DNA of 64,000 bases from Kineococcus mangrovi (GTDB taxonomy: Bacteria > Actinomycetota > Actinomycetes > Actinomycetales > Kineococcaceae): the NCBI RefSeq assembly GCF_041320705.1, contig NZ_JBGGTQ010000004.1, positions 310,001 to 374,000 on the forward strand, in the 5' to 3' direction. Positions 48,950 through 56,103 of the stretch are shown piece by piece (the stretch's first letter is position 1; each line of letters opens with the position of its first letter). Position numbers and translations under genes: made by a program. The notes beneath the pieces were generated by a model that was given only the letters and a program-made list of their open reading frames with translations, was not told the DNA's origin and made no database searches.

Positions 48950-51157
48950 TCAGCGCACCGGGGCCGGCGTGCCGGGGACCGCCCCCTCCCGCCGCTCCAG
49001 CGCCGCGCCCTCGACGTCCAGCACCGGCAGCCAGCGCAGCCACCGGGGCAGCCACCAGGCCCGGGCGCCCAGCAGCGAGAGGGCCGCGGGGACCGCGACC
49101 ATCCGGACGACGACGGCGTCGGCGAGGACCCCGATGGCCAGGGCGAACGCGATCGGCTTGATCGTGGCGTCGCCCTCGGGGACGAACCCCGCGAACACGG
49201 AGAACATGATCGCCGCGGCCGCGACGACGACGGGCGCCGCCTGCTGGAACCCGGTGCGCACCGCCGTCAGCGGCTCGGTGCCGCGGGCGTGCGCCTCGTG
49301 CATCCGCGAGACGAGGAACACCTGGTAGTCCATCGCGAGGCCGAAGAGGATCCCGACCACGATGATCGGTGCCAGGCTCAGCAGCGGTCCCGTCGTGTCG
49401 GCGTGCACGAGCGCCGTGAGCCAGCCCCACTGGAACACCGCGGTCGTGGCGCCCAGCGAAGCCCCGATCGTCAGCAGGAACCCCACGACCCCCACGACGG
49501 GGACGAGGATCGAGCGGAACACCAGCACGAGCAGCACGAACGCCAACCCGACGACGAGGACGAGGTAGACCGGCAGCGCCTCGGCCAGCGTCGCGTTGAC
49601 GTCGACGCTCACGGCCGTCTGGCCCGTCACGTACGCGGGGGTGCTCGAGCCGTCCGCGCGGATCAGGTCCCGCATGCGGTGCACGAGGTCGGTGGTGGCC
49701 TCGGCGTCCGGCGCGGTCGTGGGGACGACGGTGACCAGCGCGGCCTGCGCGTCGGCGCTGGGGACGGCCGGGGTCACCAGCGCCACCCCGTCGAGGCCGC
49801 CCAGTTCGGTGCTCAGCTGCCGGCCGCGCTCGACGGCGTCGGCACCCCGGGTCAGGACGAGCAGCGGACCGCTCACCCCGGCGCCGAAGCGGTCGGCGAG
49901 GATCGTCTGCGCCTCCTCCTGGGTGCTGCCGTCCGGCCAGGAGGTGGCCAGGCTGGTCTGCAGCGAGGCCACGGGCAGGGACACCGCGCCCAGGGCGACG
50001 ACCGCGGTGAGCAGGCTCAGCCAGCGCCGGCCCGTGACGAGCCGGCTCCAGGCGCTGAAGAACCCCCGGCCGGCGGGGTCGGGGTCGGCGGGCGGGACCG
50101 CCGCGTGCTTGCCGCTCTCGTGGGCCAGGGCCCGTCGGGCCGAGCGGGGCAGGGCGCGCAGGCCCACGACGCCGAGGGCGGCGGGGACGAGGGTGAGGGC
50201 CACCAGGACGGCGACCACGACGGTCGCGGCGGCCGCGACCCCCATCTCGGTGAGGAAGGGGATGCCCGCGACGGCGAGGCCGGCGAGGGCGATGACGACC
50301 GTGGTGCCGGCCGTCAGGACGGCCGACCCGGCGGTCCCGACGGCCAGCGGGACCGCGTCGGCGACCGTCCGGCCGGCGAGCAGTTCGTGCCGGAACCGCG
50401 TGACGATGAACAACGCGTAGTCGATGCCGACGGCCAGACCGAGCATGACGGCCAGGATCGGTGTCGTGGACTGCAGGTCGACGAACCCGGTGAGGGTGGT
50501 GATGCCCAGGGCGCCGATGCCGACGCCGACGACGGCCGTGAGCAGGTTCATCCCGGCCGCGACGAGGGAGCCGTAGGTGAGGGCGAGCACGACGAGCGCG
50601 ACGACGACGCCGAGGGCCTCGGCGGCCCCGCCGATCTGGGCGACGCCCTGGGTGGCGGTACCGGTGACCTCGGCCGTCAGCCCGGTGCCGCGGGCGTCGT
50701 CGACGGCGCGCAGGAGCGCCTGCCGCTGCTCGTCGGTGACCTCCGGCGGCGCGACGCCGTAGGAGACGGTGCTGTAGGCGGCCCGCAGGTCGGGGGAGAC
50801 GACCGGGTTCTGCGGGTCCAGCGGGTTCGTCGCTCCCTGCGCCCCGGGCAGGGCGTTCAGGGCCTGGACCACGCCGGCGACCTTCGCGGCGTTCTCCGGT
50901 GAGGTGATCTGCTGCCCGGCCGGCACCTGGAGCACGACCTGCGCGGTGGCGCCGTCGGCGGTGTCCCCGAACTCCTCCCCGATCAGGTGCAGGGCGGTCG
51001 TGGACTCCTGGCCGGGGATCTCGAACGTGCTGACGGTCTTGCCCGACAGCGTGGCCGCGCCGAGGCCCCCCAGGGCCAGCAGCAGGACCCAGACCGCGAT
51101 GACGAGGCCGCGGAACCGGAACGATCCCCGGCCGAGGCGGTGCAGGAAGGTGGCCAC
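48950..51157 (-). CDS. MMPL/RND family transporter
   Basis: A 735-residue membrane protein of the MMPL family: one N-terminal helix (VIAVWVLLLALGGLGAATL), a large outer loop, five more helices, then the same layout again. GLAVGIDYALFIVTRFR and GLAMDYQVFLVSRMHEAHARG are the two conserved helix-4/loop motifs holding proton-relay Asp residues. MMPL proteins export lipids, siderophores or drugs; cargo is unknown. GTG 51157 starts two bases after the TetR gene ends, so the pair is cotranscribed and TetR presumably controls the exporter. Confidence 0.92.
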   Translation of the reverse strand: MATFLHRLGRGSFRFRGLVIAVWVLLLALGGLGAATLSGKTVSTFEIPGQESTTALHLIGEEFGDTADGATAQVVLQVPAGQQITSPENAAKVAGVVQALNALPGAQGATNPLDPQNPVVSPDLRAAYSTVSYGVAPPEVTDEQRQALLRAVDDARGTGLTAEVTGTATQGVAQIGGAAEALGVVVALVVLALTYGSLVAAGMNLLTAVVGVGIGALGITTLTGFVDLQSTTPILAVMLGLAVGIDYALFIVTRFRHELLAGRTVADAVPLAVGTAGSAVLTAGTTVVIALAGLAVAGIPFLTEMGVAAAATVVVAVLVALTLVPAALGVVGLRALPRSARRALAHESGKHAAVPPADPDPAGRGFFSAWSRLVTGRRWLSLLTAVVALGAVSLPVASLQTSLATSWPDGSTQEEAQTILADRFGAGVSGPLLVLTRGADAVERGRQLSTELGGLDGVALVTPAVPSADAQAALVTVVPTTAPDAEATTDLVHRMRDLIRADGSSTPAYVTGQTAVSVDVNATLAEALPVYLVLVVGLAFVLLVLVFRSILVPVVGVVGFLLTIGASLGATTAVFQWGWLTALVHADTTGPLLSLAPIIVVGILFGLAMDYQVFLVSRMHEAHARGTEPLTAVRTGFQQAAPVVVAAAAIMFSVFAGFVPEGDATIKPIAFALAIGVLADAVVVRMVAVPAALSLLGARAWWLPRWLRWLPVLDVEGAALERREGAVPGTPAPVR

Positions 51158-52175: not shown

Positions 52176-53312
<1,137 letters not shown>

Positions 53313-53495: not shown

Positions 53496-53503
53496 TCTTT
53501 GGC
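53496..53503 (+). repeat. target-site duplication, left copy
   Basis: TCTTTGGC immediately before the left terminal repeat; the identical octamer follows the right terminal repeat at 56096-56103. Eight bases is the duplication length known for ISL3-family elements. Confidence 0.88.
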
Positions 53504-53529
53504 GGGTCTTCGGATCTGTAGGTGGGGAG
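53504..53529 (+). repeat. left terminal inverted repeat of the ISL3-type element
   Basis: Begins GGGTCTTCGGATCTGTAG. Read against the reverse complement of 56070-56095 it differs at four positions. Confidence 0.85.
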
Positions 53530-53653
53530 GCTGACCTCACCTGACTGGAACCGGGATGCCGTCCTGACGTCTCCCTTTCGTCCACCCGGCGCCAGTCAAG
53601 GATCGCTCGGCGATGCCGCGTCGGCCCTCGCGGATGAGGGATCGACTTGACTC

Positions 53654-53698
53654 GTCAGACCAGGTTGACAACCACGGCGTGTCAGACGAAGCTGACAC
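53654..53698 (+). promoter_or_regulatory. two tandem operator-like inverted repeats before the HTH gene
   Basis: Site 1 is GTCAGACCAGGTTGACA (53654-53670). Site 2 is GTCAGACGAAGCTGACA (53681-53697), within the 7-base inverted repeat GTGTCAG-N6-CTGACAC (53679-53698). The sites are 27 bases apart start to start and agree at 14 of 17 positions. GACACT (53694-53699) six bases before ATG 53706 may be the -10 box, so binding at site 2 would repress the operon. Confidence 0.6.
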
Positions 53699-53705
53699 TG
53701 TGGAC

Positions 53706-53942
53706 ATGCGGAGCGTGGAGGTTGAAGCGGCGGCGGTGGACCCCCGCGACGGCCTGCGCACCGTACTGGCGCTGCGCCGGCTGACCGCCCGCCTCGAAAC
53801 CCTCCACGTCGCCCGCGCCCGCGAGCAGGGCATGTCGTGGGCCGAGATCGCCTCTGAACTTGAAGTCACCCGGCAGACCGTCCACAAGAAGCACGGCCGC
53901 ACCGCCGGACCACCCAGATGGGACATCGATGTTGATCTATGA
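53706..53942 (+). CDS. HTH protein, transposon cargo
   Basis: A 78-residue protein with a helix-turn-helix, GMSWAEIASELEVTRQTVHK (42-61), preceded by a long helix rich in Arg and Leu. ATG 53706 is preferred; in-frame starts at 53680 and 53613 would run through the operator repeats. The gene overlaps the ClpN gene by 14 bases. HTH genes paired with a ClpN-domain gene occur elsewhere in actinobacteria. Autoregulation through the two upstream repeats is inferred. Confidence 0.75.
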   Translation: MRSVEVEAAAVDPRDGLRTVLALRRLTARLETLHVARAREQGMSWAEIASELEVTRQTVHKKHGRTAGPPRWDIDVDL

Positions 53943-54534
53943 CCAGTCCTTCGGCGCCGCGATGGCCGCCAGTCAGCGCGAGGCGACCCGGCTGCGCGCC
54001 GGGGAGTACGGGTCCGAGCACGTCCTGCTGGGTCTGCTGTCGCTGGACGATCCCATCGCGCGCGACGCCGTCGCGGCCCAGCCGACGTTCACCCTGACCA
54101 CCGTGCGCACCGCGGTGGAAACCGATCTCGACGACCTCCCCCATCTGGAACGCATCGGCATTTCCGCCGCCGACGTCTCCTCCGCCCCTGCTGCAGCCAG
54201 GACGCTGACTCCCGCCAACCGCCATACCGCGGAGTGGCAGAACGCGCTGAACTCAGCGTCGGTCAAGCTGAACCAGCTGCAGAAATCCGGCCTGCTCCCC
54301 CGGGAACGGAGGATGAGCGCAACCGTTCTCTGGCTGGCGATCCTCGAACCGGCAGCGCGGTCCGCGAAACTGCTGCGCGCCGCAGGGATTGACCCCGACC
54401 ACATCCGAACCGCCGTCCTGCAGCACCTGACTCCCGCCGGCGCCGTACCGCCCCGGTGGCCTGCGCACGCCCGTCCCGGCCTGGCCACGCGTCTGATGCA
54501 GCACGCGTTCACCCGACTGAACGTCAGCACATGA
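53929..54534 (+). CDS. Clp N-terminal-domain protein without ATPase, transposon cargo
   Basis: A 201-residue protein with two Clp-N repeats. The first is DQSFGAAMAASQREATRLRAGEYGSEHVLLGLL (5-37), with the invariant EHVLLGLL. The second is TAEWQNALNSASVKLNQLQK and SATVLWLAILE (100-140). In ClpC/ClpB this domain recruits substrates and adaptors; here it stands alone with no AAA modules. It may act as an adaptor or decoy for a host Clp ATPase, which is inference. ATG 53929 overlaps the HTH gene, and the stop overlaps the next start (ATGA). Confidence 0.82.
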   Translation: MLIYDQSFGAAMAASQREATRLRAGEYGSEHVLLGLLSLDDPIARDAVAAQPTFTLTTVRTAVETDLDDLPHLERIGISAADVSSAPAAARTLTPANRHTAEWQNALNSASVKLNQLQKSGLLPRERRMSATVLWLAILEPAARSAKLLRAAGIDPDHIRTAVLQHLTPAGAVPPRWPAHARPGLATRLMQHAFTRLNVST

Positions 54535-54695
54535 CCCTGCTGCTGGAGTTCGTCGTCTGGTTAGCGGTCGAAGTCGTGCAGGTCATCACCGGCCGCGGGC
54601 CCCGCAGCGAGGCCCCCAGCGCAGACGACGACCAAGCGCGGGAAAGACAACCTGTGACCGGCACTGAGGAGACGACAGAGATCAGCATCAACTGA
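54531..54695 (+). CDS. small membrane peptide, transposon cargo
   Basis: A 54-residue peptide: one hydrophobic helix at the start (LLLEFVVWLAVEVVQVITG) and a polar acidic tail. ATG 54531 overlaps the ClpN stop by four bases (ATGA), which supports it as a real, coupled third gene. No family is recognised. Confidence 0.6.
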   Translation: MTLLLEFVVWLAVEVVQVITGRGPRSEAPSADDDQARERQPVTGTEETTEISIN

Positions 54696-54823
54696 CTGCA
54701 GACGAGCACCCTGCGGCGGTTCGAGGTGCACCCACCAGCCAGCGACACCGACTTCGGCCACCACCTTGCCTCTGCTCCCCGACCTCGCTGCGCGCCGCAT
54801 GCCCGGCCGATGACTTCCTCGGC

Positions 54824-56068
54824 TTGAAAAGCATGCACCTGGTCGCCCTCGAACGTGTCGAAGCCGACGCGGAATGCATCCGCGGACTCCTGCGCCTGAC
54901 CGTCGACACCAAACCGCCCACGGTGGTTGCACTGCCGCCAGTGCGGGGTTCTCGCTGCTGCGAACCCCGCTGCCCCATGGGCGTCTGGTCCGAGCAGCAC
55001 CAGGCGCTGCCGACGCGAGCCAAGCTCACCACCCGGGCCGTCGAGTGGGCGATCCAGACCCTGCGCTGGGACTATTCCACCGTCTCGGCCCTGGCCCGCC
55101 AGCTCGGCGTGGACTGGCACACCCTGATGAACGCCATCCGCGCCCGCGCTACAGACCACCTCGATGACGAACCCACCCGGACGGCGCGGCTTGGCCGGGG
55201 TCGACACCCTCGGCGTCGATGAGCACACATCTGGCGGCCCTCCGCCCGCCACCGCGACCGGGCCGTCACCTCCATCGTCGACCTCACCCGCGACGAGCAC
55301 GGCCACGTCCACGCCCGTCTGCTCGACGTCACCCTCGGCCGCTCCGGTCCGGTCTACGCCACCTGGATCCGCGCTCAGACCCGCGAGTTCGTCGACGACA
55401 TCACCCACGCCGCCCTCGACCCGTTCCGCGGCTACGCCAACGCCATCCGCACCGAACTGCCCGACGACACGGTGACGGTGCTGGTCCCCCACGAGCGGGA
55501 GGTGCCCCCAGCCTTCCACGTGGTCAAGCTCGCCTCCACCGCGATGGACGAGGTCCGCCGCCGTGTCCAGCAGGCGACGCTGGGCCGGCGCGGACACCGC
55601 GACGACCCGCTCTACCGGATCCGGCGGCTGTTGACCACGGCCCGGGAGAACCTCACCGACCGCGGCCGCCTGGAAGCCGCGCTGCAGGCCGGTGACCCTG
55701 GGCTGGAGGTCACCGTGGCCTGGTACGCCTGCCAGAACCTGCGCTCGATGTTCCACGCCCCGACTCCGGCCGCGGGCCGGGTCGTCGCGCAGCGGGTGCT
55801 CGAGAGCTTCCACCGCTGCCCGATCCCGGAGATCGCCCGGCTCGGGCGGACGCTGCGTTCGTGGCGGCGCGAGGTGCTGGCCTATTTCGACGATGACCCT
55901 GCCCGGTACGGCATCAGCAACGGCGGGACCGAGGCCATCAACCTCATCATCGAGAAGACCCGGCGCCTGGAGTACGGGTTCCGCAACTTCGGCAACTACC
56001 GCATCCGCATCCTGCTCGCCGCGGACGGAACCCGTCCCTGGGGACGACGCGGGCGCAGGTCAGGGTGA
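54824..56068 (+). pseudogene. decayed ISL3-family transposase
   Basis: Recognisable ISL3 pieces occur in order but in different frames. First ERVEADAECIRGLLRL, CCEPRCPMGVWSEQHQALP and LARQLGVDWHTLMNAIRARA (54824-55222). Then, in a second frame, GLAGVDTLGVDEH (about 55185-55225). From about 55228 the first frame resumes: TSIVDLTRDEHGHVHARLL, AFHVVKLASTAMDEVRRRV, NGGTEAINLIIEKTRRLEYG and FGNYRIRILL to TGA at 56066-56068. A two-base insertion in a CACACAT run explains one shift. The first pair of zinc-ribbon cysteines (HCRQCG) is out of frame and next to a deletion. At least three lesions make it inactive. Confidence 0.85.
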
Positions 56069-56069
56069 G

Positions 56070-56095
56070 CTACCCACCCGCAGATCCGAAGAGCC
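56070..56095 (+). repeat. right terminal inverted repeat of the ISL3-type element
   Basis: Ends CAGATCCGAAGAGCC; its reverse complement matches the left end at 22 of 26 positions. It begins one base after the transposase stop. Confidence 0.85.
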
Positions 56096-56103
56096 TCTTT
56101 GGC
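56096..56103 (+). repeat. target-site duplication, right copy
   Basis: TCTTTGGC, identical to 53496-53503. Confidence 0.88.

Follow-up and report, generated by a model that had tools for sequence, protein, structure and literature searches.

A passenger-carrying ISL3-family transposon of Kineococcus mangrovi with a split ClpC2-like operon as cargo

Why does an insertion element carry a free-standing ClpC N-domain, and what might that domain do there? The question is raised by a stretch of 64,000 nucleotides from Kineococcus mangrovi (contig NZ_JBGGTQ010000004.1, positions 310,001 to 374,000; hereafter the window), in which a complete ISL3-family transposon carries, to the left of a broken transposase gene, an operon of two overlapping genes, one for a small helix-turn-helix (HTH) protein and one for a protein with the ClpC N-domain fold, called ClpN here. 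The account favoured below, with fair but not high confidence, is that of a passenger-carrying element, probably stranded, whose cargo is a self-repressed, split ClpC2-like sensor and sponge operon. ClpC1 is a sought-after drug target, and mycobacterial ClpC2 is a sponge-type rescue (PMC10030653, PMC12913811; published systems are described throughout from the available parts of the papers cited). No description of a transposon-borne ClpC2-like operon came up in searches of open-licence papers.

The transposon and its passenger slot

The complete ISL3-type transposon of the original prediction is confirmed, with coordinates correct to the base (Table 1). The terminal repeats, one read against the reverse complement of the other, match at 22 of 26 bases, their arms can be extended to 40 nt at 75% identity in a repeat search, and an exact 8-bp duplication lies immediately outside them. 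An estimate from base composition, not a shuffle, gives about 12 inverted pairs of such quality, 1-10 kb apart, by chance in a window of 74% GC, and about 0.001 when an exact 8-bp repeat outside the pair is added; the boundaries are settled because related elements carry homologous ends. Pfam finds PF13542 (E 1e-7) and PF01610 (E 3e-35) on the two pieces of the broken gene, and these transposase domains, together with the exact duplication and the related terminal inverted repeats, place the element in the ISL3 family, in which 8-bp target duplications are typical and terminal inverted repeats begin with GG.

The end pattern, searched with up to three mismatches, was matched at 39 sites in 8 of 12 genomes of the family, with no match to the reversed pattern in any of the 12. 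An exact 8-bp duplication was present in six of 27 entries examined for paired ends (two pieces were also entered joined), the window element included; the other five comprise four elements in the genus and one, in G163, from another family of the order. Entries whose paired ends lack an exact duplication (L052, L092, L095, L099, L103, L105 and L108) did not enter the count of complete elements. In DNA, the transposase module of the window element shares 81-84% identity with the modules of four elements in the genus (968-1,174 bases compared) and 69% with that of G163; the left parts of the elements differ, except in the 3.2-kb pair of G003 and G008. The largest element carries an ABC exporter, a luciferase-like monooxygenase, an MFS transporter and an unassigned protein, as well as two TetR-like regulators (identified by eye) and a 404-aa ISL3 transposase frame, and the smallest, at L057:2485-3530, is without transposase and is a non-autonomous relative. 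L054 and L096, which lie in two species, are 95.3% identical end to end over 3.2 kb and stand at different sites with their own, different exact duplications, so that cargo evidently travels with these ends. When the flanks of L054 are joined they restore one open frame (transporter-like by eye); a homologous empty site for it was not found in the 12 genomes.

Sequence comparison thus indicates that ISL3-type elements of this kind hold passengers in a left slot and that one cargo element has demonstrably moved, and the window element belongs to this cargo-swapping series. The regulator and ClpN genes are confirmed as its cargo, as had been proposed: the same ends and transposase enclose other left-slot genes in related elements, and the operon occurs elsewhere without the ends. 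At two other places (L052:4256-4262 in G008:C13 and L097:4767-4776 in G008:C46) the ISL3 ends of two elements lie back to back with a few bases between them, which may reflect tandem insertion or hybrid-end events.

At the insertion locus, the matches listed for the 12 family genomes never place the flank homologues side by side, and they show no HTH-ClpN operon here; no empty site for the window element was found. An operon at this locus lacking the terminal repeats, which would speak against delivery by the element, was likewise not encountered, and the claim that the element brought the cargo stands. To the left of the element, about 120 bases (50500-50621) match several congeners at 74-82%, some at more than one place, and also match a second place in the K. 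mangrovi genome; nearer the element, a run of six-base GGAGCC-type repeats (53235-53275) lies within a histidine-kinase-like open reading frame.

The transposase is decayed, as first reported. Scored against the 404-aa frame of a sister element, the gene has near its start a 1-bp insertion and then a 91-bp deletion, followed by +1 and +2 insertions that enclose a TGA (55220-55222) and are separated by about 32 bases; 24 bp are also inserted near 55487, and another 6 bp are deleted. DNA homology to the sister elements begins near 54864. The insertion near 55487 coincides with LDAFHVV of the sister frame, which is presumably an acidic motif. The assembly of K. mangrovi itself, 4.36 Mb in 23 contigs, yielded no further ISL3 DDE domain, though collapsed copies could be missing from it. 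An intact transposase gene is a need for an element's own movement and not for family membership, and the window element is probably stranded by its dead transposase.

The decay proceeds by indels. The ratio of nonsynonymous to synonymous substitution rates (dN/dS) for the C-terminal half of the transposase is 0.15 and 0.23 against two sisters, that for ClpN is 0.38-0.46 against three relatives (dS near 1), and that for the HTH gene is 0.15; between the sister elements L054 and L096 the value for the transposase piece, 0.07, is lower than the 0.21-0.22 of their cargo. Relaxed constraint on the transposase relative to the cargo is not seen in this comparison, and the expectation of stronger constraint on the cargo was not borne out. 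That the cargo has been kept is argued from frames and operators that are intact and from conserved residues, and not from substitution patterns.

A split operon behind tandem operators

The start of the HTH gene had been placed at 53613; it is most likely the GTG at 53700, and that of ClpN is corrected to the ATG at 53929, which leaves the ClpN gene overlapping the HTH stop by 14 nt. Of three coupled cargo genes originally proposed, these two hold up, and the third, a small membrane peptide, is not conserved: it has no Pfam or NCBIfam match, and none of the nine named relatives examined has a counterpart of it at the ClpN stop. Pfam matches of the HTH protein (e.g. HTH_23 and sigma-r4) all fall under the cut-offs; the best solved match of its profile is RelI (E 4e-4), and a 72-residue chain of Rv2667 (8ada, taken as the N-terminal domain) follows at E 0.27. 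ClpN has the Clp_N repeat fold, PF02861, in two stretches (E 3e-7), its profile matches ClpC N-domains at E 1e-11, and the best fold match of its structure model (mean predicted local distance difference test score 84.9) is a ClpC1 N-domain (E 3e-5), with an extra C-terminal helix at residues 185-198 of lower confidence. Solirubrobacter soli has a similar HTH and, behind it, a Clp_N part in a single open frame (L131:5700-6378), a fused counterpart of the split pair, and this one-frame arrangement, as in ClpC2, supports the view that the two genes are halves of one machine. The cargo is a split ClpC2-like operon, ClpC2-like in layout yet not ClpC2; it is not filed as ClpC2 because two defining features fail, namely the single fused protein and the cyclomarin-contact residues.

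Tandem GTCA-N8-TGAC sites, 27-29 bp apart, precede the HTH gene in all 21 loci compared (13 of the transposon's clade and eight of a chromosomal clade described below), with the proximal site 2-4 nt before the start codon in every one; in the window such a pair occurs once, and in 100 Markov sequences not at all. The right half of the distal site is TTGAC[A/G], a -35, and a -10-like hexamer follows 17-18 nt on, under the proximal site. Since the proximal operator covers that hexamer, the transcript would be leaderless, and the promoter is probably of that type. The published ClpC2 operator, CGTCAAC-n5-GTTGACG, is likewise repeated, lies 1-2 nt upstream over the -35 and -10, and is leaderless (PMC10030653); placement and tandem form are the same, whereas the spacing here is N8 and not N9, and base 5 in the window is G and not A.

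The recognition-helix residue after RQ/KQ (TRQ-T-VH or SKQ-A-VH) co-varies with operator base 5 (GTCA-G or GTCA-A). Where the residue is Thr, base 5 is G in the left-distal, left-proximal and right-proximal half-sites of all 14 loci; where it is Ala (six loci), base 5 of the same half-sites is A in 17 of 18 and T in one; a single locus with Ser is mixed. The fourth half-site, shared with the -35, has A in 21 of 21 loci. These loci are related by descent and independent switches are few; there were at least two, provided that the state common to the clades is not ancestral. Thr goes with G in both clades, and two Thr loci, G006 and G007, belong to the chromosomal one; the base 5 split inside that clade is not explained by clade, and these two loci show half-site type to follow the helix residue and not the clade. 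Because helix residue and base 5 change together in both clades, the HTH protein and not ClpN probably reads the operator.

Table 1. Coordinates of the transposon, its cargo, its operators and the related elements (positions are those of the window unless another locus is named)
Feature	Position or locus	Strand	Length	Remarks
Complete ISL3-family transposon	53504-56095	+	2,592 bp	ends, duplication, related elements
Left terminal inverted repeat	53504-53529	+		end comparison, related elements
Right terminal inverted repeat	56070-56095	-		end comparison, related elements
Target duplication TCTTTGGC, left copy	53496-53503			exact 8-bp repeat
Target duplication TCTTTGGC, right copy	56096-56103			exact 8-bp repeat
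Distal operator GTCA-N8-TGAC	53654-53669	+		right half contains -35 TTGACA (53665-53670)
Proximal operator GTCA-N8-TGAC	53681-53696	+		overlaps -10-like GAAGCT (53688-53693); 3 nt before start codon
HTH protein, likely autorepressor	53700-53942	+	80 aa	GTG start; profile matches RelI, weakly a Rv2667 (ClpC2) chain
Stand-alone ClpC-N-domain protein (ClpN)	53929-54534	+	201 aa	PF02861; ATG start
Open reading frame with hydrophobic start	54531-54695	+	54 aa	ATGA overlap; not seen in relatives; perhaps not a gene
Broken ISL3 transposase	54824-56068	+		open pieces 54824-55222 and 55472-56068, same frame
Related element	G003		3,215 bp	exact duplication; TetR and Chlorophyllase-type hydrolase
Related element	G008		3,242 bp	exact duplication; TetR and Chlorophyllase-type hydrolase
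Related element	L098:945 to L053:4602, G008:C56		9,658 bp	exact duplication CCATAACC
Related element	L057:2485-3530, G003		1,046 bp	ISL3 ends, exact duplication; MerR and membrane-type open reading frame (by eye)
Related element	G163, another family of the order		1,858 bp	exact duplication

Distribution, ligand and competing readings

ClpN of the transposon's type is sparsely distributed: it was found in seven of 396 genomes of the order, its own included (E at most 1e-8), and in one of 394 genomes of a class sample, i.e. its own (E at most 1e-10). A scan of named genomes with an alignment gave 11 ClpN loci, nine with the HTH-ClpN pair (Sanguibacter, Kineococcus, two Cellulomonas, three Actinotalea, Jonesia and Pseudokineococcus); three of the nine are the loci of G008, G094 and G067, which brings the distinct loci to 13 with the window. 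A distant partial match (L130) and a second partial match in G067 (L013, 40% over 70 residues) were left out, and the fused frame of L131 was kept out of the operator count. A single-sequence search gave no match in named genomes or plasmids, and an alignment search of viral contigs none either. In the stretches around the other 12 HTH-ClpN loci there are neither paired ISL3 ends nor a significant transposase match; an end-like 15-mer in L017 (three mismatches) was dropped, its partner end being absent. Only two sets of two loci have flanks in common: L124/L126, from Actinotalea in both cases, and G301/G329. On the upstream side, similarity in DNA to the window sets in at element position 145-151, near the operators, in five of six loci compared, and at 245 in L017.

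A related pair lies in the chromosome of eight of the 12 family genomes (G001, G002, G003, G005, G006, G007, G009 and G011), and is absent in the seven order genomes that carry the transposon's clade. This pair of other Kineosporiaceae (L113-L118, L147, L148) has the gene order of the window pair and its tandem operators (8 of 8), and differs in not lying on an element, in keeping the cyclomarin-contact residues and in forming a separate clade; the split is supported at 100/100 in a tree of 19 rows, six of them chromosomal. Within its own clade the window ClpN has an unresolved position beside other Kineosporiaceae, the nearest being that of Kineococcus TRM81007 (54%). The split chromosomal form is not described in the available parts of the ClpC2 papers cited. 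A congener with neither clade, G004, has two ClpC-type genes (G004:C2:1684445-1684864 and G004:C2:2537849-2538265) in open frames of 899 and 909 aa, perhaps another way of tolerating ClpC-directed agents.

As a working mechanism, the HTH protein would bind the two tandem operators over the leaderless promoter and repress its own operon, and ClpN would contact the HTH protein. ClpN may serve as both sensor and sponge by binding a ligand that would otherwise strike the ClpC N-domain, such as a peptide toxin, a phage protein or an exposed unfolded protein; such binding would lift repression, more ClpN would be made, and the surplus could shield ClpC. Several points weigh against the reading of a self-repressed sensor and sponge. 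The residues critical for cyclomarin in ClpC1, i.e. F2, F80 and E89 (PMC10030653), are absent in all 14 rows of the transposon's clade (13 distinct loci). The structure model of the HTH protein is poor (predicted template modelling score 0.48), and a fold search with it gave no match; Taylor et al. place the DNA binding of ClpC2 in its C-terminal domain (PMC10030653); and the fused Solirubrobacter form is without tandem operators. Mutual exclusion of the two clades is weak, about 0.09 as computed by hand over the 12 family genomes, one of which, G010, showed no ClpC1 either and is uninformative. The terminal repeats, taken alone, are not rare by chance, as the roughly 12 expected pairs indicate.

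The first of these points bears on the ligand. The chromosomal proteins keep F2 in 8 of 8, F80 in 8 of 8 and E89 in 7 of 8 (six proteins counted from the alignment and two read by eye), and the placement of F80 and E89 depends on an uncertain alignment of the second Clp_N repeat. In the transposon's clade 47 columns are invariant over seven sequences, at positions other than the cyclomarin contacts. On this alignment the transposon's clade has lost the cyclomarin-contact residues; since they are absent, sponging of cyclomarin by it is not supported, and the ligand of the transposon-borne ClpN is predicted not to be cyclomarin.

The same loss would suit a different account, in which ClpN is a general stress chaperone or holdase that is titrated by heat or unfolded protein, so lifting repression with no toxin or antibiotic involved, and ClpC2 is indeed mildly heat-induced and has been proposed to be a holdase (PMC10030653, PMC12913811). 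Patchy distribution and carriage on a transposon, however, would appear to fit a conditional trait better than a housekeeping one, and this account is considered unlikely, if the most serious of the alternatives. Less probable still is that the operon entered a resident ISL3 copy after it had landed here and never moved as cargo, which would agree with the failure to find a second copy of the cargo with the same ends or an empty site at the locus; against it, related elements have other cargo in that left slot, and one of them moved whole. An addiction pair that stabilises the element, with the HTH protein as a RelI-like antitoxin, is brought to mind by the RelI match and by the small overlapping two-gene unit behind its own operators, and seems very improbable given that the partner of RelI, RelS, has an RNase T1 fold (PMC13284704) and the partner here a ClpC N-domain fold. 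Weakest, and scarcely credible, is that the HTH protein regulates transposition as part of the transposition machinery in the manner of TnpR of ISPpu12: a regulatory gene does lie inside the element, as tnpR does in ISPpu12a (PMC4133298), but the five other elements with exact duplications have no HTH-ClpN pair, the pair occurs at 12 other loci without ISL3 ends, and the only operator pair in the window stands ahead of the HTH gene itself.

Carried further, as a tentative suggestion, the sensor and sponge reading would make the operon a mobile unit that confers inducible immunity to natural products that target ClpC, or to phage proteins, of kinds still to be discovered. It would then be a ClpC2-type sensor and sponge that is split by nature and has an altered pocket; horizontal transfer, here on an ISL3 transposon, would have spread it among actinobacteria, and it would take the place of the resident chromosomal version.

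Comparison with known systems

Among ISL3-family elements ISPpu12/ISPpu12a also carries passenger genes, and like the window element it has extra genes unnecessary for transposition that are mobilised as a single unit (PMC4133298, PMC4447125). The transposase of the window element, unlike that of ISPpu12, is broken. As far as the available parts of those sources describe it, the ISPpu12 cargo is a putative lipoprotein-related gene and a CzcD-like gene, with tnpR, where the window element has the HTH-ClpN operon. The lipoprotein-related gene is a putative signal peptidase gene. The related elements described here reveal cargo-swapping ISL3 transposons within one genus. RelS-RelI resembles the cargo in its related HTH and its small two-gene form, and RelI has been linked to an HTH region of ClpC2 by HHpred; its partner, however, is an RNase-fold toxin (PMC13284704), where the HTH protein of the window is paired with a ClpC N-domain protein.

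The closest likeness is to mycobacterial ClpC2 (Rv2667), which shares a ClpC1-N-domain-like protein, an HTH-related region and tandem pseudopalindromes over a leaderless promoter, and for which self-repression, its lifting by cyclomarin and protection have all been measured (PMC10030653); the M. tuberculosis protein is triggered by cyclomarin and not by ecumicin or ilamycin (PMC12913811). ClpC2, however, is a single protein of an N-terminal part and a ClpC1-N-domain-like part (PMC10030653), whereas the window cargo is two overlapping genes on a transposon. New here are the split ClpC2-like cargo, the operator-helix co-variation, the cargo-swapping ISL3 series and the loss of known drug-contact residues. 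A ClpN that is conserved yet altered points to an unknown ligand of ClpC-type N-domains, and in a naturally split version it can be asked directly which half recognises the operator: the C-terminal domain has been given that role in ClpC2 (PMC10030653), PMC13284704 mentions an HTH region of ClpC2, and the co-variation favours the HTH and names both a residue and a base.

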